Assembly (NCBI GenBank): GCA_951812825.1
Contig: OX638324.1
Coordinates: 878,459-942,458 of the forward strand
From: an uncultured Dehalococcoidia bacterium
GTDB taxonomy: Bacteria > Chloroflexota > Dehalococcoidia > Lucifugimonadales > GCA-2712585
DNA length: 64,000 nucleotides
Direction: 5' to 3'
A model generated the notes under the pieces. It saw nothing but the letters and a program-made list of their open reading frames with translations, had not been told where the DNA came from and made no database searches. Positions 4,855 through 25,856 of the stretch are shown one piece after another (positions within the stretch are counted from its first letter, which is position 1; each line of letters opens with the position of its first letter). A program made the position numbers and the translations under genes.

Positions 4855-6192
4855 CTAATCCTCCTCACTCCCCACCGGAATCTCAAACACAAACCGGCTC
4901 CCCCCTTCCTGCCTCCTCTCCGCCCGGATAGACCCCCCGTGGGCCTCCACCAACTGCCGGGCAATCGTAAGCCCCAACCCCGTCCCCCCCGTTGCTCTCG
5001 TCCTCGAAGGGTCAACCCGGTAGAACCTGTCGAAAATCTGCCCCACCTCCTCCTCCGGCACCCGCACTGACTCACCCACCGCTTCCACCGAAACCGATAC
5101 CTCGCCCCCCTCCGGCGTGTGCCTCACTGCGTTGTCCAACAAATTCCCCAACGCTTGCGATATCCGCGTCCGGTCCATCCGCGTCCGTGGCAACCCCAGC
5201 GGCGACTCCACCCTCAACGCCACCCCCTTCCCCTCCGCCGCCGGACGAAACGCCTCCACCGACATCTTGGCCAGTTCGCCCATCGACTCTTCCTGCAAGT
5301 CCAGCGTCAGCGCCCCCGCGTCCGCCTGGGCAATCAGCCCCACGTCCTCCACCAGCCGCCCCAGGTGCATAGCCTGCTGGTGCGCTACCTCAATCGCCGC
5401 CGGAGTAGGCGTCAACACCCCGTCACGCATCGCCTCCAGATAGCCCCGCACGTTCGTCAGCGGCGTCCGCAGTTCGTGCGCCACGTCCGACATCAGCCTC
5501 ACCCGCTGCTCTTCGGCCGTCTGCAGCCGGTCAGCCATCGTATTGAAAGTTCTACCCAGCTGCCCTATCTCGTCCGATGACGACGCCTCCACCCGCTCCT
5601 CCAGGCTCCCCATCCCCAGCCTCCCCGCCGCCCCCGTCAACGCCCGCACCGGCGAAAGAATCCGGCGGGAGAGCATAGTTACCAGCAACACGCCCCCTAT
5701 CCACGCCCCCAGACCCGCCCACACCAACGCCCAGTTCACCGAAGACACCACCCTGGAAATCGCCGGCTCTGCCACTTCTGTTTCCACCTGGCCGGGGGCC
5801 AGCGAAAGAAATCCTATCTCCTGGTTCCCCGTGCGAATTGGCCGAAATCTGCCCGTCCCCCTCCACACCACCGGTACCCTCTCGTATCCCGCTTGCGAGT
5901 CCGCAATCAAGCGTCCCTGGGCGTCCCTCACCACAATTCGACGATCATACAGGTCTCCTGCCCTCTCCACGATTCCCTGAATGCCGCTCCAGTCCCTGTT
6001 ACGGGTATAGGCCAGGGAAATCATCTCCTCCACCCGTGCTGCCCGTGCCTCCTCCAGCCTGTCCGAAAACTGCTCCACCTCCCGGTTGGCCGAATACCCC
6101 GTGTACACGCCCACCGCAGCCAGCGCCAGACCCAGCGCCAGCGTGAACCCCAATATCAGGCGAAACTGGATCCCCTGAAACCACCTAACCAT
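4855..6192 (-). CDS. Sensor histidine kinase with missing ATP-lid G1 box
   Basis: A 445-residue membrane kinase. TM1 is at ~11-30, a sensor region runs ~31-150, TM2 is at ~155-175, then HAMP (~178-230). The HisKA box is SDVAHELRTPLTNVRGYL with His239 as phosphate acceptor. The N box (QALGNLLDNAVRHTPEGG), F box (IFDRFYR) and G2 box (GGTGLGLTIA) are all present. The G1 motif (DxGxG) normally found between N and F boxes is absent: after EVSVSVEAVGESVRV the sequence goes straight to PEEEVGQIF, as if about ten codons were deleted in frame. The gene overlaps the response regulator by 8 bases and should be co-expressed with it. Autokinase activity is doubtful. Confidence 0.9.
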   Translation of the reverse strand: MVRWFQGIQFRLILGFTLALGLALAAVGVYTGYSANREVEQFSDRLEEARAARVEEMISLAYTRNRDWSGIQGIVERAGDLYDRRIVVRDAQGRLIADSQAGYERVPVVWRGTGRFRPIRTGNQEIGFLSLAPGQVETEVAEPAISRVVSSVNWALVWAGLGAWIGGVLLVTMLSRRILSPVRALTGAAGRLGMGSLEERVEASSSDEIGQLGRTFNTMADRLQTAEEQRVRLMSDVAHELRTPLTNVRGYLEAMRDGVLTPTPAAIEVAHQQAMHLGRLVEDVGLIAQADAGALTLDLQEESMGELAKMSVEAFRPAAEGKGVALRVESPLGLPRTRMDRTRISQALGNLLDNAVRHTPEGGEVSVSVEAVGESVRVPEEEVGQIFDRFYRVDPSRTRATGGTGLGLTIARQLVEAHGGSIRAERRQEGGSRFVFEIPVGSEED

Positions 6193-6880
6193 TGCCGAAT
6201 CTGTAACCCACGCCGTACACCGTCTGGATTCGCTTCTGCCCCTTTCCTCCCTTCCCGTCCGAAATCCGCTTCCTCAGGTTTGAAACGTGCACGTCGATAG
6301 TCCTGTCGAATCCGTCGAAGTCGTACCCGAATACCCGATCGATGATCTGGTCCCGCGTGAAAGTCCGTCCCGGCTCCTTCATGAACATCGCCAGAATCCT
6401 GAACTCCGTCGGAGTCATCCCAATCTCACTCCCGTCCATCCACACCTTCCGGCTCATCAGGCTCAGCTTCAACCCGTTGCGCGTCAACGTAGAAGGCCCT
6501 TCTTCCGTCTTCTCCCTCGCCGTTCGACGCAACACCGCCCGCACCCTGGCCGTCAGCTCCCTCGGACTGAAGGGCTTCGTCACGTAATCGTCCGCCCCCA
6601 TGTCCAGCCCTTCCAGACGGTGAGGCTCGTCCGCCCGTGCCGTCAGCATCACGATAGGCACGTCCGACTCCTCCCGAAGCATGCGGCATACGCTCATCCC
6701 GTTCAGCTTCGGCAGCATAAGGTCCAGGACAACCAGGTCCGGCTGAGCCTCCCGCGCCAGACGCAGTCCGTCGATTCCGTTGCCCACCGAAAGCACCTCG
6801 TGACCGTCCTGCTCCAGGTACAGGCGCAACAGCCTCACCACGTGGGCGTCGTCCTCAACTATCAGAACCTTACTTCCCAT
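6185..6880 (-). CDS. OmpR/PhoB-family response regulator
   Basis: A 231-residue protein. The receiver domain (1-120) has the acidic pocket E9-D10-D11, phosphoacceptor D53 in VVLDLMLPKLNG, the T80 position in VMLTARAD and K102 in DDYVTKPFSP. The winged-helix DNA-binding domain (~130-231) carries MTPTEFRILAMF, RTFTRDQIIDRVFGYDFDGFDRTIDVHVSNLRKRI and the terminal VYGVGYRFG. It is the first gene of a two-gene operon with the overlapping kinase gene. A terminator at 6924-6965 separates it from the gene upstream. Its targets are unknown. Confidence 0.95.
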   Translation of the reverse strand: MGSKVLIVEDDAHVVRLLRLYLEQDGHEVLSVGNGIDGLRLAREAQPDLVVLDLMLPKLNGMSVCRMLREESDVPIVMLTARADEPHRLEGLDMGADDYVTKPFSPRELTARVRAVLRRTAREKTEEGPSTLTRNGLKLSLMSRKVWMDGSEIGMTPTEFRILAMFMKEPGRTFTRDQIIDRVFGYDFDGFDRTIDVHVSNLRKRISDGKGGKGQKRIQTVYGVGYRFGNG

Positions 6881-6923
6881 TTCGCAACCTTTGCCAGATC
6901 CTCAATCTTCCTTTAGAGGAAAA

Positions 6924-6965
6924 CACAGGCGGGGAGACCCGGGGGTGCAAGTCTCCCCGCCTGTG
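6924..6965 (-). terminator. Rho-independent terminator
   Basis: A perfect 15-bp stem (CACAGGCGGGGAGAC and its complement) encloses a 12-base loop. On the minus strand it is followed by TTTTCCTC. It lies just after the DUF2680-like gene and before the response regulator gene. Confidence 0.85.
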
Positions 6966-6983
6966 GGTTGAGCCTGAAGCGTC

Positions 6984-7577
6984 CTATGACTCAGTATAGC
7001 TTGTCGAAGAGTCCTCCTCATCCGGTGGCTCAGACCTATCCATATCTTTGTCCCACAACCCACCACCCCGTTTCCCCCTGTGATGTCCGCCCCGCCAATC
7101 TCCCCTGGAGGCGCCCCTATGCACTCTGGTCCCCTTCATCCAGCCGCCCCGGTCAAGAAATTCCGGCCGGTCCTCGAACCACTCTATGTATCCGTCCGCC
7201 TCTTCCTGGCTGATAAGCTCCTTCTCCACCATGGCGTCCATTCTGGCCCGGACCGCCTCATTCGCCATCGCGCGCCCGGCCTGCGTCAAGGCGTCCTCCA
7301 ACTCAGACTCCTCCACCCCCAGAATCTCCGCCGCCTCGGCAATGAAGTCCGTATCCTTGTCCCAACTCTCCTTCACCGACTCGAAAGCGTCCGTAACGTC
7401 GCTGGCTTCCATTTCAAGAATCTCCGCCACCCGCACCGCCAGGCTCGTCCCATTATCGCCGCCCTTCCCCAATCCGCCGCCCCCCTTGCCGCCGTGCGCC
7501 AGAATCACCCCGCCGCCGACTCCCACCACCATCAGCCCCGCAAGAATTACTGCTACAATCCAACCTCTCTTGCCCAC
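6984..7577 (-). CDS. Exported DUF2680-like protein
   Basis: A 197-residue protein starts at GTG 7577, with AAGGAG seven bases upstream. Residues ~5-27 form an uncleaved or cleavable signal helix (GWIVAVILAGLMVVGVGGGVIL). Two short helical repeats follow: AVRVAEILEMEASDVTDAFESV and AEAAEILGVEESELEDALTQA. Then comes RARMDAMVEKELISQEEADGYIEWFEDRPEF, a pattern like DUF2680 (a short helix with a Trp and RP near its end). The C-terminus is rich in Gly, His, Arg and acidic residues (GGHHRGKRGGG), which might bind metal. The function is unknown. A strong terminator follows. Confidence 0.7.
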   Translation of the reverse strand: MGKRGWIVAVILAGLMVVGVGGGVILAHGGKGGGGLGKGGDNGTSLAVRVAEILEMEASDVTDAFESVKESWDKDTDFIAEAAEILGVEESELEDALTQAGRAMANEAVRARMDAMVEKELISQEEADGYIEWFEDRPEFLDRGGWMKGTRVHRGASRGDWRGGHHRGKRGGGLWDKDMDRSEPPDEEDSSTSYTES

Positions 7578-18590: not shown

Positions 18591-19079
18591 CTACCCTCCG
18601 CTCTTCTTCCTACGCCCGCTCGCCGTCCGCCTCTTCCGCGGCCTCCGTGACGCCTCGTATACCCCAATCCAGTCCTCCATCGGCGTCTTCCCCACCGCCT
18701 CCCCAATCAACTCCAGCGGCAGGTCCTCCAGCTTCTTGAACCTCACGCAGGACTTCCCCATGTTCATCCGCTTCCCCGTAGCCTTGTAGCTCTCCAAAAA
18801 CCACCGCTGCGTATCCTGGTGGGCGTAGATGTTCATCAGATGCACCGATACGTAGTTCTTCTCGGACGCTATCGCCGCGTACATCAGCGGATGCCCGTTG
18901 TACGTCTTGGGCACCACGGACAAAGGCACCACGTAGGCAATCATCCCGAAGTCCATCACCTCCTCGTACCCTTCGGGAAGGTTCGCCAGCACCACCTCCC
19001 GCACCGTCGAAACCGCCTCCCGACGCTCCTCGCTCAACTCCGAAATATACTCCTCCACCGTCGTCGCATCACTCTTCAT
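18591..19079 (-). CDS. DUF1801 family protein (copy 1)
   Basis: A 162-residue protein. ATG 19079 is seven bases after GGAGG; a TTG two codons upstream is less likely. It has the DUF1801/YdhG-like core: EEYISELSEERREAVSTVREVVLANLPEGYEEVMDFGMIAYVVPLS, KTYNGHPLMYAAIASEKNYVSVHLMNIY, and KRMNMGKSCVRFKKLEDLPLELIGEAV. A basic tail (RRPRKRRTASGRRKK) follows. The family includes a proposed iron chaperone fold (frataxin-like), but the function is unproven. A frameshifted near-copy lies at 20266-20759. Confidence 0.85.
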   Translation of the reverse strand: MKSDATTVEEYISELSEERREAVSTVREVVLANLPEGYEEVMDFGMIAYVVPLSVVPKTYNGHPLMYAAIASEKNYVSVHLMNIYAHQDTQRWFLESYKATGKRMNMGKSCVRFKKLEDLPLELIGEAVGKTPMEDWIGVYEASRRPRKRRTASGRRKKSGG

Positions 19080-19118
19080 AGCCAAACCTCCTGACTCGTC
19101 CCTGGCTGCCTGCTCTCA

Positions 19119-19529
19119 TTATGCCTGTTGGAAAAGGGGCGGTACAACCATTTGACAAACGGGACCGTAGGCGCGGCTGAGCTTCAGATCGAGGGTCGCC
19201 AATGGACAATCTAACGCCTCAGCCAGTGCGACATACCATGCGTCGTAGCTTGTCAGGTTGCCCCGCAACTCCCACACCCGCTCAGCGAAAGGAGCGAAAG
19301 GGAACAACTCGATGTCCAGCCGGAGCAAGTCTGTATGAGCGAAGGTGGCTTCAACTCGCGAAATCTGCTGCTTATGCTCCAACTGCCGTAAGACGTTGGT
19401 CGCCTCAACCAGTACCAATTCAGGCGCGACCAGACCCCCTCCGATCAGCACAGATTGCGCCCACCCGCCATCGCTCCCGGAATCCACCAACGCTGCTACG
19501 AGTACGGACGCGTCGGCAACGGTGGTCAC
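19119..19529 (-). CDS. PIN-domain toxin (VapC-like)
   Basis: A 136-residue protein with the PIN acidic quartet: D6 (VADASVLV), E42 (LVEATNVLRQLE), D96 (TSYDAWYVALAEAL) and D114 (CPLATLDLKLSRA). VapC toxins are Mg-dependent ribonucleases that cut tRNA or rRNA. Its start overlaps the antitoxin stop (ATGA at 19526-19529), the usual toxin-antitoxin arrangement. A truncated copy of its C-terminal half lies at 20783-21000. Confidence 0.9.
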   Translation of the reverse strand: MTTVADASVLVAALVDSGSDGGWAQSVLIGGGLVAPELVLVEATNVLRQLEHKQQISRVEATFAHTDLLRLDIELFPFAPFAERVWELRGNLTSYDAWYVALAEALDCPLATLDLKLSRAYGPVCQMVVPPLFQQA

Positions 19530-20265: not shown

Positions 20266-20759
20266 CTATTTCCGCTTACTCGTAGCCTTCCTGCGTTTGG
20301 GAGCAGGCTTCCTCTTGCGCGGCTGACGTGACGCCTCGTAGATAGCTACCCATTCGTCCATAGACATCTTCCCCACCGCTTCCCCAATCAGCTCCAGGGG
20401 CAGGTCATCCAGCTTGCGAAACCGCACGCAGGACTTGCCCATGTTCATCCGCTTCCCCGTCGCCTTGTAGCTGTCTACAAACCACCGCTGCGTCTCCTGG
20501 TTGGCGTAGATATTCATCAGGTGCACCGACACGTAGTTCTTCTCCGACGCAATCGCCGCATACATCAGCGGATGCCCGTTGTACGTCTTGGGAACGACGG
20601 ACAAGGGCACCACGTAGGCGATCATCCCAAAGTCCATCACCTCTTCGTACCCCTCGGGGAGATTCTCCAACAGCACCTCCCGCACCGTCGAAACCCACTC
20701 CCGACGCTCCTGCTCAACCCGGAAATATACTCCTCAACCGTCGACGCATCACTCTTCAT
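20266..20759 (-). pseudogene. Frameshifted DUF1801 gene (copy 2)
   Basis: The DNA is a close copy of 18591-19079, including ATG 20759 and the upstream GGTTTGG. Around 20710-20725 the copy reads CTCCTGCTCAACCCGG where copy 1 has CTCCTCGCTCAACTCCG, a net loss of one base. Translation from the original start therefore leaves the frame after about 16 codons. The rest (EVLLENLPEGYEEVMDFGMIAYVVPLS onward, to a Lys-rich tail) is intact and could still be made from an internal GTG at 20685. It is either a pseudogene, a shortened protein or a sequencing error. Confidence 0.7.
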
Positions 20760-20782
20760 AACCAAACCTCCAAATATGTCTT

Positions 20783-21028
20783 CTATGTGGAACGTGCTGG
20801 AACTATCAGCCTACAAGCTGGGCCTTTGGCACGACTGAGCCTCCGACCCAGCGTCGCCAGCGGACAATCCAGAGCCTCCGCCAGAGCAACGTACCACGCA
20901 TCGTAGCTCGTGAGGTTGCCGCGCAACGCCCATACACGGTCAGCGAAAGGGGCAAAAGGAAAAAGCGGCATCTCAAGCCGAAGAAGCTCTTCATGACTAA
21001 ACTGTCTAAGATTTTGGAATTGGCTCAT
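20783..21028 (-). pseudogene. Truncated PIN-domain gene
   Basis: The frame encodes only the C-terminal half of the VapC-like toxin: ELLRLEMPLFPFAPFADRVWALRGNLTSYDAWYVALAEALDCPLATL, nearly identical to the intact copy at 19119-19529. The first catalytic Asp and the Glu are missing, and Asp114 is replaced (ATLGRRL). No antitoxin gene is next to it. It should be inactive. Confidence 0.75.
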
Positions 21029-21074
21029 GACTCTTGTTTTCTAAGACCTAACGCTTTTGGCAAGCGCGCGTTTT

Positions 21075-21734
21075 TCAGCGTCGCCTGGCTAAACTTGTTA
21101 ATCCCTTTATGGTGAATGGCAATTCCTTAAACGTAGCGACCTTGGCAGTTGCCTTGGACAAATCGTGAGCTGCAGTGAACTCGTTCGCAACCACGATGCA
21201 GTCAATTCCCGCCGCTATTGCCGACTTCAACCCTCTCGCCGAGTCTTCAATAACCACCGTTTCAGCGGCAGTAGCACCAAAGCGTTGGAGTCCTCTCAAA
21301 TAGGGCTCGGGATCTGGTTTAGCTCGCTCGTAATCCTCCCGAGTCAAATAGAATTCCATATGATCCAGGATTGATCGCCTTTCGTGTATTAAGGTGAAAT
21401 CAGGCGGTTTGGAGGTAGTAATTATTCCCATCCTGTATTCACCTGCGAGAACGTCTAGCGTTTCCAAGACACCCTCGATTTCGATGTCTTCGGTCATCAG
21501 ATATTCCTGGTAGTATCGGTTTCTTAGTTCTCGGCCACGCTTGATTTCAGATTCGGATATTCCTGAAACTCGTGCCGCCTCCCACGCGGAAACTCCATTA
21601 GCCATATTCTCCAAATATGCGTCTCGTGGGAGATCAATTCCGAGAGCTGCCAGCGCTCGCTTGTTTGCTATGTAATACCAATATTCTGTTTCGACTAAAA
21701 CCCCATCATGGTCGAATAGAATGTATTTTTTCAC
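21075..21734 (-). CDS. HAD-superfamily phosphatase/phosphoglycolate-type hydrolase
   Basis: A 219-residue HAD subfamily IA hydrolase starting at GTG 21734. Motif I is FDHDGVLVETE (DxDG), motif II T in IITTSKPP, motif III Lys in RAKPDPEPY, motif IV VVIEDSARGLKSAIAAGIDCIVV. The cap is the helical insertion after motif I. The start abuts the purC stop with no gap, so the two are co-transcribed. Base composition is A+T-richer than the flanks. The substrate is unknown, perhaps a nucleotide or sugar phosphate. Confidence 0.85.
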   Translation of the reverse strand: MKKYILFDHDGVLVETEYWYYIANKRALAALGIDLPRDAYLENMANGVSAWEAARVSGISESEIKRGRELRNRYYQEYLMTEDIEIEGVLETLDVLAGEYRMGIITTSKPPDFTLIHERRSILDHMEFYLTREDYERAKPDPEPYLRGLQRFGATAAETVVIEDSARGLKSAIAAGIDCIVVANEFTAAHDLSKATAKVATFKELPFTIKGLTSLARRR

Positions 21735-22724
21735 TCAGGCGATCTCTTCAAGGTTGCTTTCCAAACGTGTCTCGATCGGTTGGTCCGCCTCTGGAAACTC
21801 GAAAGAGCGACCGGTGATCTTCTCATAAAGGTAGATGTAACGTCTTGAGAGCTCGATTACAAGTTCATCCGGTGCTGGTGGTAGGACCTCATCCTCGTAG
21901 GGGTTGCAGTTCGCCCTGAACCAGAGCCGGAGGAATTCTTTGTCGACACTGTCGGGTTCCTGTCCCTCCCGCATGCGCTGTTGATAAGAGTCGGCGATCC
22001 AGTAGCGACTAGAGTCAGGGGTGTGGATCTCGTCGATCAGAAGGATCTCACCGTTCTCGTCACGTCCCATCTCATATTTGGTATCGACGAGAACCAGGCC
22101 TTGCTCGGCGGCCTTGGCTTGACCGAAGGCGAAAAGTTTCTGCGCGATGCGGCTACATTGTTCCCAATCATCGGCCGTCATCCAGTGCTCGGACAGAATG
22201 TCGTCAGGGCTGATCGGACGGTCGTGATCCTCCTCCTTGGTGGTCGGTGTGAGGTAATTCGTCGGGAGCTTCTGGTTTTTCATTAGGCCGTCGGGCAAAT
22301 CGTTGCCACAGTAGTGACGCTGACCACTCTGGTAGACCGTCCAGAGGGAGGTGCTCGTGGTTCCGGTGATGTATCCACGCACCACGAACTCAATCGGGAA
22401 GACGGTACATTTTTTGGCAATTGTGACGTTTGGATCGGGGATGGATAGAACCTGATTTGGCACAATATGGCGGGTCTGTTCAAACCACCATGCGCTCGTC
22501 ATGTTGAGGACCTGCCCTTTGAAGGGGATAGCGGCCAGCACCCGGTCGAAGGCACTCTGTCGGTCGGTGGTGATGAGTACCATACGATCCCCAAGATCGT
22601 ATCGATCCCGTACTTTGCCTATGAACTTCTCACCTTGAGAAAGATTCGTCTCAATGAGGCAGTTTCCGAGCTCTTGTCGTATTCGATCCGTGTAGCTCTT
22701 TGGGGTACAAATAGCGTTCTCCAT
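21735..22724 (-). CDS. purC: Phosphoribosylaminoimidazolesuccinocarboxamide synthase
   Basis: A 329-residue SAICAR synthetase of the long form, converting CAIR plus aspartate and ATP to SAICAR in purine synthesis. Evidence: GKVRDRYDLGDRMVLITTDRQSAFDRVLAAIPFKGQVLN, VVRGYITGTTSTSLWTVYQSG, LPTNYLTPTTKEEDHDRPIS, LVDTKYEMGRDENGEILLIDEIHTPDSSRYW. ATG 22724 follows GGAGG by 9 bases; a TTG five codons upstream is less likely. G and C are balanced on the + strand here, unlike the C-rich surroundings, suggesting transfer from another lineage. It is followed directly by the HAD gene. Confidence 0.93.
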   Translation of the reverse strand: MENAICTPKSYTDRIRQELGNCLIETNLSQGEKFIGKVRDRYDLGDRMVLITTDRQSAFDRVLAAIPFKGQVLNMTSAWWFEQTRHIVPNQVLSIPDPNVTIAKKCTVFPIEFVVRGYITGTTSTSLWTVYQSGQRHYCGNDLPDGLMKNQKLPTNYLTPTTKEEDHDRPISPDDILSEHWMTADDWEQCSRIAQKLFAFGQAKAAEQGLVLVDTKYEMGRDENGEILLIDEIHTPDSSRYWIADSYQQRMREGQEPDSVDKEFLRLWFRANCNPYEDEVLPPAPDELVIELSRRYIYLYEKITGRSFEFPEADQPIETRLESNLEEIA

Positions 22725-22791
22725 GATAATTGCCTCCAATCAGTGATCCAATGACAACCTCAGCGTGAAGGTTCTTGATTTTGTCAAGCTA

Positions 22792-22822
22792 AATGGGCCC
22801 GGCAGGGTTCGAACCCACGACC
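22792..22822 (-). repeat. tRNA-Met 3'-end remnant (candidate attachment site)
   Basis: This 31-base stretch matches 24318-24348 at 30 of 31 positions. It contains the T-loop TTCGAAC and the CGGGCCC acceptor strand of the tRNA-Met, in the same orientation, but no 5' half. With the intact tRNA it makes a direct repeat flanking the reductive dehalogenase gene. Confidence 0.7.
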
Positions 22823-22901
22823 GATAACGCTGGTCCACCTGAACTGCAGAATGCGTTGCTTCCTCCTTGGAATCGCGGCCTACACCCGCGACCCCATCAA
22901 G

Positions 22902-24185
22902 CTAACGGTTACTCGCTACCCAGAAGTCATCAGCCTTCTTGTCAAACTTTCCATTTCCTGCCCTATCGTCGAGCCACACCCAGAACTTGTTCAGCCACCT
23001 CCACCGGAAGTTTCGGATAACAAAACGAGGAATGGCGTATATCCTGCGGGGCGGCTTAGTCCAGGCGCACATGCGGACGCAGGTGCTGCAGGTAGTCCCG
23101 ACGCGGTTCTGGAAGGTCATACACTTCTTTGCATCTACCTTCCAGGAAAGTACGCCAGTTGAATTGTGCTCGTTTAAGGCCTCCAAACTTCGGTTCCCGG
23201 TTGTGATGGCTTTCGTTCCACACTTCGGGACACATTTCAGACATGCGTTGCAGAACTCTGTGATACCGGAGTCCACCGCGCCTGCGAATTCAAGCGGAAG
23301 ATCGGTGAAGATCTTGGAAATGCGGCAGCGTGCCCCCACCTTCGGGTTGATTAAAAGGCCATGCCTCCCAAGCTGGCCGAGGCCAGCATCGACAGCCAGG
23401 GGAATGCTTAAGGCAGTGTCATTAGCCGCGGGGATGGCGTTATACCCCATACCTCGTATGAACTCAGCCAGCATCCATAGGGTCGGAGCCATCCGGGCAT
23501 ATGCTAGTGTGCTGAGTCCTTCAGTAAGGAGGGACGGCGCGTGCTCAGTGCCATCTATGTCCTTGCCCCACTCGTGGAGCAACACCACCACATATTTCAT
23601 TTCCTTCGGAATGACCCGAGTCCCATCTTCTAGACGAATGGGCTGGCTGTGCTCTTCATAGCCGGGTTCGTCAGAGAACTTGATGGGGTAGTCCTTCTTC
23701 GTCTTCTCATCGAAGTAACGGGAATACACCCAGCGACGGTCCAACTCAGCGAAGCCTACCTGGTCCGCTCCAAGCACTTGGGCGGCCTTGCGTACAATCT
23801 GAGAACCCTCTTTGGGCGAAATTTCCGGTCGACCGGTGGGCGCGGGCTCAACCTTGGTTTGCCATGCAGTAGCTCTGGAATCCGCCTGATTCTTTGAGAA
23901 GCCCATAATCGTTAGGAGGGAATCTGCTGCAGAGTCCAAGCCCCACGCCGGGGCCTCGAAACCGGCGCGTCCCTTCTCCGCCAGCTTTCTCTGCTTGTCC
24001 TTTAGCTTTTCTCGTTCATTCTCCAGGTGAGCATCCCACCTCATCTGCGAGCCTATATGATCTTTCTGATTGAACCGCACGTACGTATCTTGCACTCTGT
24101 ACATTTCGGCGGCCGTCACCCGCCCATTCGCCTTAGAATTCTTTTCCGACTGAGATTTGGCGTGACGCCTCAGCTTAAGTTTCAT
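22902..24185 (-). CDS. Reductive dehalogenase-like protein (RdhA family)
   Basis: A 427-residue protein. ATG 24185 follows AGGAGG; an upstream TTG is less likely. Two [4Fe-4S] motifs are seen: C312-C315-C318-C322 (FCNACLKCVPKC) and C355, C366, C369, C373 (KKCMTFQNRVGTTCSTCVRMC). The corrinoid-enzyme core region GMGYNAIPAANDTALSIPLAVDAGLGQLGRHGLLINPKVGARCRISKIFTDLPLEF is typical of RdhA. Such enzymes remove halogens from organohalides using cobalamin. No TAT signal and no RdhB anchor gene are visible, so it may be cytoplasmic and not respiratory. It sits alone between tRNA-Met and a copy of that tRNA's 3' end. Epoxyqueuosine reductase is a related alternative, but the RdhA motifs fit better. 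Confidence 0.8.
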   Translation of the reverse strand: MKLKLRRHAKSQSEKNSKANGRVTAAEMYRVQDTYVRFNQKDHIGSQMRWDAHLENEREKLKDKQRKLAEKGRAGFEAPAWGLDSAADSLLTIMGFSKNQADSRATAWQTKVEPAPTGRPEISPKEGSQIVRKAAQVLGADQVGFAELDRRWVYSRYFDEKTKKDYPIKFSDEPGYEEHSQPIRLEDGTRVIPKEMKYVVVLLHEWGKDIDGTEHAPSLLTEGLSTLAYARMAPTLWMLAEFIRGMGYNAIPAANDTALSIPLAVDAGLGQLGRHGLLINPKVGARCRISKIFTDLPLEFAGAVDSGITEFCNACLKCVPKCGTKAITTGNRSLEALNEHNSTGVLSWKVDAKKCMTFQNRVGTTCSTCVRMCAWTKPPRRIYAIPRFVIRNFRWRWLNKFWVWLDDRAGNGKFDKKADDFWVASNR

Positions 24186-24319
24186 GCCACGATACCTCCT
24201 GGCAGTCAAGGCTAATCACATTCTGGGGTCTGTTCCACTGTGTTGCAAGTATCTAGACAACCAGGAATACAGTCCCCACAGCCTTTGAAGACAATTTGGC
24301 GTTTGCCAGCAGAATTTAA

Positions 24320-24391
24320 TGGGCCCGGCAGGGTTCGAACCTACGACCAACCGGTTATGAGCCGGCCGCTCTACCACTGAGCTACGGGCCC
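24320..24391 (-). tRNA. tRNA-Met (CAT)
   Basis: The minus strand folds as a complete cloverleaf: acceptor GGGCCCG/CGGGCCC, D arm GCTCAGTGGTAGAGC, anticodon stem GCCGG/CCGGT around CTCATAA (anticodon CAT), and T arm GTAGG-TTCGAAC-CCTGC. No CCA is encoded. The stem lacks the initiator's three G-C pairs, so it is an elongator tRNA-Met or a tRNA-Ile2 read by lysidine modification. Confidence 0.9.
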
Positions 24392-24458
24392 CACCCTTCT
24401 AGCCTAAGCATCCCCTCTGCCACTGTCAACAAATCTCTCCCCGCCGACGCCTCTCCCC

Positions 24459-24487
24459 TTTACACCCAACAACCCGCTTGCTACCCT
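24459..24487 (+). promoter_or_regulatory. Probable glyS promoter
   Basis: TTTACA (24459-24464), 17 bases, TACCCT (24482-24487) with TGC before it. It lies 28 bases upstream of the glycyl-tRNA synthetase start. Confidence 0.55.
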
Positions 24488-24515
24488 CATCCCACCTTCA
24501 AAATCAGGAGCAAGC

Positions 24516-25856
24516 GTGACCACCACCTCCCAACCCGTCACCATGGACAAGCTTCTCTCCCTCGCCAAGCGACGCGGCTTTCTCTTCCAGAGCAGCGAAA
24601 TCTACGGCGGCCTCAACGCCACCTGGGACTACGGCCCCCTCGGCGCCCAGCTCAAGCGCAACGTCAAGGACGCCTGGTGGCGCTCCATCCTCCAACACCG
24701 CGACGACGTCGTCCCATTCGACGCCGCCATCCTCATGCACCCCGCCACCTGGGAGGCCAGCGGCCACCTGGGCAGCTTCACCGACCCCCTCGTCGAATGC
24801 CGCTCCTGCCATCAGCGCTTTCGCGCCGACCATATCGATTCCAACAACTGCCCCAACTGCCAGGGCGAGCTCACTGCCCCTCGCCAGTTCAACCTCATGT
24901 TCAAGACCTTCATGGGCGCCGTCGAAGACACCGCCTCGGAGATCTATCTCCGGCCCGAAACCGCCCAGGGCATCTACGTCAACTTCAAAAACGTCCTCGA
25001 CACCTCCCGCCGCAAGCTCCCCTTCGGCATCGCCCAGGTCGGCAAAGCCTTCCGCAACGAAATCACCCCCGGCAACTCCACCTTCCGCACCCGCGAGTTC
25101 GAAATCATGGAGCTCGAATTTTTCGTCAAACCCGGCGACGACGACGACTGGCTACAGTATTGGACCGAGCAGCGCATGGACTGGTTCGTCTCCCTGGGCG
25201 TCGACCGCGCCAACCTACGCCTCCGCAAGCACGAGTCCGACGAACTCGCCCACTATGCCAAGGAGGTCTACGACATCGAATACCGCTTTCCCTGGGGCTG
25301 GGCCGAGCTCGAAGGCATCGCCAACCGTACCGACTACGACCTGCGCCAGCACGCCGACCACAGCGGCCAGGACCTCACCTACTTCGACGACCAGGCCCAG
25401 GAACGCTACTACCCCTACGTCATCGAACCTTCCTGCGGCGCGGACCGGGCCGCCCTCGTCTTCCTCATAGACGCCTACCAGGAAGAAAAAATTCCTCCCA
25501 GGAAGCCCGGCGGCAAGACCGAGACCCGCAGCGTGCTGAAACTCCACCGGTCCCTGGCTCCCGTCACCGTCGCCGTGCTGCCCCTCAGCCGTAACGAGCG
25601 ACTCGTCCCCACAGCCCGCCGCGTCCACGAGATTCTCCGCCAGCGCTTCAACACCCTCTTCGACGACGCCCAGAGCATCGGACGCCGCTATCGCCGCCAG
25701 GACGAAATCGGCACCCCCTTCTGCGTCACCGTGGACTTCGACACCATTGACGACGAGCAGGTCACCCTCCGCGAACGGGACACCATGTCCCAACTCCGCA
25801 TCCCCGTCAACCGGATAGTAGACGCCATAGAAGACAAGCTCCGCCACGGCTGGTAG
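24516..25856 (+). CDS. glyS: Glycyl-tRNA synthetase (class II, single chain)
   Basis: A 446-residue dimeric-type GlyRS that attaches glycine to tRNA-Gly. GTG 24516 has AGGAG five bases before it. Motifs: KRRGFLFQSSEIYGGLNATWDYGPLGAQLKRNVKDAWW, a zinc-like CRSCHQRFRADH...CPNC insertion, motif 2 QVGKAFRNEITPGNSTFRTREFEIMELEFF, WAELEGIANRTDYDL, and motif 3 VIEPSCGADRAALVFL. The anticodon-binding domain is at ~345-446. It starts an operon with sbcD and the CopD-like gene (gaps of 2 bases). Confidence 0.97.
   Translation: MTTTSQPVTMDKLLSLAKRRGFLFQSSEIYGGLNATWDYGPLGAQLKRNVKDAWWRSILQHRDDVVPFDAAILMHPATWEASGHLGSFTDPLVECRSCHQRFRADHIDSNNCPNCQGELTAPRQFNLMFKTFMGAVEDTASEIYLRPETAQGIYVNFKNVLDTSRRKLPFGIAQVGKAFRNEITPGNSTFRTREFEIMELEFFVKPGDDDDWLQYWTEQRMDWFVSLGVDRANLRLRKHESDELAHYAKEVYDIEYRFPWGWAELEGIANRTDYDLRQHADHSGQDLTYFDDQAQERYYPYVIEPSCGADRAALVFLIDAYQEEKIPPRKPGGKTETRSVLKLHRSLAPVTVAVLPLSRNERLVPTARRVHEILRQRFNTLFDDAQSIGRRYRRQDEIGTPFCVTVDFDTIDDEQVTLRERDTMSQLRIPVNRIVDAIEDKLRHGW

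Follow-up and report, generated by a model that had tools for sequence, protein, structure and literature searches.

A 1.5-kb reductive dehalogenase unit between tRNA-Met and a copy of its 3' end: probable tandem integration in a SAR202-type Dehalococcoidia genome

Reductive dehalogenase (rdh) genes of Dehalococcoides are found on genomic islands integrated at the 3' ends of RNA genes. The ssrA islands (vcr-GI and relatives) bear rdh genes, are arranged in tandem and are inserted in the T-loop; they are accompanied by a 20-bp repeat and by a CcrB-like serine recombinase, DsiB, the gene of which overlaps the attachment site with its end (PMC3146451). Other rdh islands of this genus display tRNA-Ala 3' fragments with truncated recombinases, and its tRNA-Ala, tRNA-Val and tRNA-Lys islands contain several rdh genes together with phage-related genes (PMC2764846). 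In CIMEs and tandem accretion, a stretch bounded by attachment (att) sites and devoid of a recombinase adjoins a further element, the two sharing one tRNA end (PMC5704250). We analysed a 64,000-nucleotide stretch of DNA (the window) from an uncultured Dehalococcoidia bacterium, in which a short unit carrying an rdhA gene invites comparison with these systems. In common with the ssrA islands, it combines rdh cargo, an RNA gene 3' end as target, a direct repeat on the far side, a putative CcrB-like serine recombinase end at the att site and a probable tandem arrangement. It differs in comprising a single gene within 1.5 kb, in lacking an integration module and rdhB, and in its SAR202-type host. 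Its target also differs, being tRNA-Met, from which the repeat at the other boundary derives, whilst integration at ssrA itself was seen for only one orthologue, L235. No ORFs of an integration module (dsiB, dsiA, parB-like, mom-like) were present in the unit or across 21.0-24.3 kb, where only a CcrB-like tail scar was found. The repeated tRNA 3' fragment near rdhA and the truncated recombinase recall the Dehalococcoides tRNA islands (PMC2764846), which in contrast hold several rdh and phage-related genes. As in CIMEs (PMC5704250), both attachment sites are present, integration and transfer genes are absent and another element adjoins at the same tRNA end, but this putative CIME is only one gene long. 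We regard the unit as a variant on the Dehalococcoides ssrA and tRNA-Ala island pattern with a new target, a single-gene unit and another host lineage, and consider it likely that it is a recombinase-less, att-bounded (CIME-like) element produced by tandem site-specific integration at the tRNA-Met 3' end.

The intact tRNA-Met (CAT) was located with ARAGORN at 24320-24391 on the minus strand; its 3' end faces the unit and CCA is not encoded (GGGCCCATTAAA). An initial sequence-only reading had proposed that 31 bases at 22792-22822 copy the 3' part of this tRNA, and this was borne out. The two repeat copies, at 24318-24348 (core inside tRNA-Met) and 22792-22822 (a displaced tRNA-Met 3' end comprising T arm and acceptor), both read on the minus strand, are identical at 30 of 31 positions in direct orientation with a spacing of 1526 bases, and the match ends sharply at the variable loop. 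When a 22-base part of the repeat was searched allowing up to three mismatches, only these two sites were recovered in the window and none in 100 shuffles. Exact matches to the core pattern in the 2.47-Mb genome were likewise confined to these two, those with one or two mismatches being other tRNAs. In a blind direct-repeat search of 450 bases on each side of rdhA, the 31-base repeat scored best (28.5 versus a shuffle maximum of 11.5). Together, the window, shuffle, genome and blind-repeat searches rule out a chance or low-complexity match. A census in which tRNA 3' ends of the genome were compared with the 6 kb downstream found an isolated copy at tRNA-Met only among the tRNAs examined, other high scores being due to adjacent tRNA genes in clusters, which rules out that such fragments are a usual feature of tRNAs in this genome. 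CCA is encoded at tRNA-Met in most relatives of the family but is absent from both repeat copies, so that its loss probably preceded or accompanied the event. Assembly errors may be conceivable, though the window sits inside a single 2.47-Mb contig.

The sole gene of the unit (22902-24185, minus strand; ATG start chosen from orthologues, with the frame open to 24209) encodes an RdhA homologue of 427 aa. The product exceeded the curated cut-off of TIGR02486 (169.1 versus 160.35 bits), matched the Pfam Dehalogenase family, gave a weaker match to Fer4_16 under its Pfam cut-off, and contained both Fe-S motifs (CNACLKCVPKC and CSTCVRMC), which upholds the earlier description of the only gene between the repeats. 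The nearest solved structure was PceA (E 5e-50). Likeness to PceA-type reductive dehalogenases extends over 355 residues and includes the equivalents of PceA Tyr246, Asn272 and Arg305, which we take to be the catalytic residues and which align with Tyr229, Asn255 and Arg288 of the window protein (positions counted by hand on the alignment). It differs from the PceA type in that the Tat motif RRxFxK was not found in the protein and no rdhB occurred among the ORFs of the unit; the Tat signal and rdhB membrane anchor characteristic of respiratory RdhA are thus both missing. Differences from orthologues fell mainly at third codon positions (e.g. 54/34/161), indicative of purifying selection. The unit had also been described as about 1.5 kb long and free of an integrase. 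This holds inside the unit, where the ORF list contained no recombinase or integrase, but not directly outside the repeat, where what look like the last codons of a recombinase survive.

The unit forms part of a block of foreign composition. GC content was approximately 0.47-0.56 across about 20.9-24.4 kb versus 0.60-0.67 on the side of the glycyl-tRNA synthetase gene (GlyRS; 24516-25856, plus strand), the old neighbour of tRNA-Met on the host side. GC3 was 0.64 for rdhA, 0.65 for purC and 0.47 for a HAD-family hydrolase gene, versus 0.75-0.87 for GlyRS, SbcD, carboxylase and folP, which belong to the host DNA on the right. The purC gene (21735-22724, minus strand), which we read as the first gene of an older element, is a second, foreign copy, the other purC of the genome being found at C1:123 kb. 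It moves together with the HAD gene (21075-21734, minus strand); the pair displayed 91 % DNA identity over 1697 bases to genome G045, a member of another family, and the purC proteins of the two genomes were 92 % identical versus 61 % for GlyRS. Homology to the G045 purC-HAD cassette ends on the left at 21028-21029, abutting a 5'-truncated PIN (vapC-like) gene (20783-21028). Duplicated DUF1801-PIN pairs were also observed at 18591-19529 and 20266-21028, the second PIN being the one truncated at the start of the foreign block. Orthologues of rdhA showed 77-84 % protein identity, with 79-84 % for those in other-family genomes whose GlyRS was only 60-69 % identical. They were found in a minority of genomes of the order, the named records being SAR202 and Dehalococcoidia genomes, whilst viral contigs gave no match to rdhA. 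None was found in the examined members of the window's genus and family, ruling out rdhA as a fixed resident of the locus. In three genomes (G003, G005 and G025) tRNA-Met stands beside GlyRS without rdhA, and this arrangement is ancestral. Separately, tRNA-Met and glyS (window 24320-25856) were noted as divergent neighbours in several relatives too, apparently an old arrangement.

Once duplicates had been merged, a hand count gave 16 distinct rdhA loci whose flanks were usable. In three of these, one being that of the window, rdhA lay no more than 190 bases from an RNA gene 3' end; assuming that approximately 1.5 % of genes directly adjoin the 3' end of an RNA gene, the chance of this is near 0.002 by our own arithmetic. 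In L235 (SAR202 AC-647-P02, genome G235; same sequence as L271), ssrA (5500-5849) is followed by rdhA (6001-7254) and a degenerate ssrA 3' end (7412-7441), the repeat matching at 23 of 30 positions, a score unequalled in 2000 shuffles. In L236 (SAR202 OSU_TB06, genome G236, of the same genus as G235), rdhA lies beside tRNA-Val and a repeat matching at 22 of 30 positions spans the tRNA end and flanking DNA; this repeat is weak, as the blind test placed it barely over the maximum reached by shuffles, and a second shuffle test in which it exceeded the null used a query picked post hoc. The gene points toward the tRNA in L236 and away from the RNA gene in the window and L235, and no end sequences shared by the three units were apparent by eye. 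As the repeats are of different types (31 bases of T arm and acceptor in the window, the ssrA 3' end in L235, the tRNA-Val end plus flank in L236), a single recombinase specificity does not account for all three. The remaining 13 loci had neither an RNA gene next to rdhA nor a repeat clearly above background, and RNA gene ends are therefore not the sole sites of rdhA. Clean empty sites were not recovered in any of the three cases. For the window unit no exact one was found, the left flank not being syntenic in relatives. Joined L235 flanks identified relatives without rdhA that had other neighbours at ssrA, and joined L236 flanks identified rearranged relatives in which the left MFS gene stands beside a different tRNA-Val (GAC).

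These loci bear on whether the unit was ever larger. It may be the residue of one large tRNA-Met island whose recombinase and other cargo were deleted, an explanation we take seriously whilst leaning somewhat against it. Decay is the usual route to a CIME (PMC5704250), the recombinase genes of the window's own genome are decayed, and most rdhA orthologues are located elsewhere without repeats. The three units are, however, of near-equal size (1526 bases in the window, about 1592 in L235 and about 1533 in L236), and to leave them at three different RNA genes, deletion would have had to proceed in parallel three times, sparing the same single gene each time.

Just outside the tRNA fragment, on the purC side, lies the putative scar of a large serine recombinase (22747-22827, plus strand; scar proper 22747-22791), the frame of which, SNDNLSVKVLDFVK, continues into the fragment as LNGPGRVRTHDR followed by a stop. 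It matches the last codons of CcrB/DsiB-like large serine recombinases and its frame agrees with that of recombinases at tRNA-Met in five genomes, the assignment being made through a shared motif, as approximately 14 codons survive. The 21-base motif, encoding KVLDFVK, gave 11 matches with up to two mismatches in six genomes and none for the reversed control. Elsewhere it occurs at recombinase C-termini (ending SESASVLDFVKSGVPDST and a stop in G048, and SESASVLDFVKPSPP in G012) and directly before a tRNA 3' end in G051 (tRNA-Lys). A search for recombinases using the tRNA-Met site elsewhere, as the sequence-only reading had suggested, was successful in five other genomes. Those reading into tRNA-Met (CAT) were decayed in G048 and intact in G229 (568 aa); G192, G184 and G019 yielded C-terminal portions, and the tail from G019 (TVLDFDPLGGPGRVRTYDQPVMSR) closely resembles the window scar. 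The G229 protein contains the Resolvase, Recombinase and Zn_ribbon_recom domains (PF00239, PF07508 and PF13408), and its best NCBIfam match was CcrB, with a score far under the equivalog cut-off. Large serine recombinases of the order often end inside other tRNA genes as well (Ile, Ala, Asp, Leu, Pro, Arg and Asn). CcrB-like recombinases ending in tRNA genes form a large family that is widespread in the order (e.g. L240:8712-10415 in G229), a single genome holding as many as 12 copies or more. The window's genome itself contains broken serine recombinase genes at G000:C1:488612-489663 (L162, ending near tRNA-Glu) and G000:C1:779295-780275 (L164). Immediately ahead of the fragment we also observed a sequence, TTCAGGTGGACCA (22832-22846, minus strand), that is similar to, but two bases shorter than, the TTCAGRSMGMRKCCA motif found next to Dehalococcoides ssrA repeats.

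Genome G045 displays the order tRNA-end scar, recombinase tail and then the purC-HAD pair, with 2.5 kb between. In the same genome, identical 35-base repeats consisting of a tRNA-end piece and a recombinase tail lie 6.76 kb apart (L113:110-144 and L113:6868-6902), which suggests tandem decayed islands. Recombinase elements of the family showed no long tRNA repeat at their distal end within the 20 kb or less examined, and the 31-base repeat is therefore no established hallmark of theirs. It could instead be the work of a tyrosine integrase: such enzymes typically give a repeat that covers the T arm and acceptor, whereas the serine-family scars in G045 retain only about 12 bases of the tRNA end. 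It is nonetheless rather unlikely, in our judgement, that a lost tyrosine integrase made the rdhA insertion and that the serine scar belongs to the older neighbour alone. The rdhA unit holds no integrase ORF, and the serine integrases of Dehalococcoides likewise leave a 20-bp ssrA repeat upon T-loop insertion (PMC3146451). The short G045 scars notwithstanding, the serine family provides the nearest candidate for the acting recombinase.

An ordinary tRNA-recombinase junction consists of the tRNA 3' end followed by the recombinase end. Such a junction is present at 22792-22822, except that one end of the rdhA unit occupies the place of the tRNA 5' half and the other end of the unit adjoins the complete tRNA, presumably because a second unit was inserted in the tRNA-proximal attachment site of the first, as in tandem accretion (PMC5704250). 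That the fragment is instead the leftover of a tandem tRNA-Met duplicate, with rdhA landing between the copies by chance, is very improbable: tandem tRNA copies do exist in this genome, but the match breaks off abruptly at the variable loop, the fragment is bordered on its outer side by the putative recombinase scar like other tRNA-recombinase junctions, and the orthologous units at ssrA and tRNA-Val are built in the same way.

Under the tandem integration that we favour, an element with a CcrB/DsiB-like large serine recombinase would first have integrated at the tRNA-Met 3' end, its remnants being the purC-HAD pair and the final codons of the recombinase gene. The 1.5-kb rdhA-only unit would then have been placed between tRNA-Met and the scar, bringing a new tRNA 3' half and leaving the old one as the 31-base fragment. 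Carrying no recombinase, it may have been moved in trans by that recombinase family (CIME-like), or it may be what deletion has left of a larger island. That the unit integrated at the 3' end of an RNA gene, in the manner of the Dehalococcoides islands and with tRNA-Met as target, had been proposed from the outset and gains support from the geometry, the foreign composition, the absence of rdhA from the examined members of the genus and family, the scar, the ssrA orthologue and, more weakly, the tRNA-Val orthologue. What the present analysis adds is a tandem site, at which the rdhA unit would have been placed beside an older recombinase-type element represented by the scar and purC-HAD. Whether the unit belongs to a wider class is a more speculative matter. 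That CcrB-like serine recombinases resident in SAR202-type Dehalococcoidia act in trans on a mobile rdhA cassette, which spans about 1.5 kb, holds this one gene and lacks a recombinase, and dock it at the 3' ends of different tRNA and tmRNA genes is an idea we put forward tentatively and think doubtful.

A central question in the organohalide chemistry of sediments and the ocean is by what means reductive dehalogenase genes spread. The mechanism has so far been known from the many-gene islands of Dehalococcoides, and the window seems to display the same principle with a single-gene unit, in another lineage and at a new target. In marine-type and SAR202-type Chloroflexota, too, very small integrated units thus seem to serve as vehicles of dehalogenase genes, and the orthologues at other RNA genes make trans-mobilization of a single dehalogenase gene directly testable.
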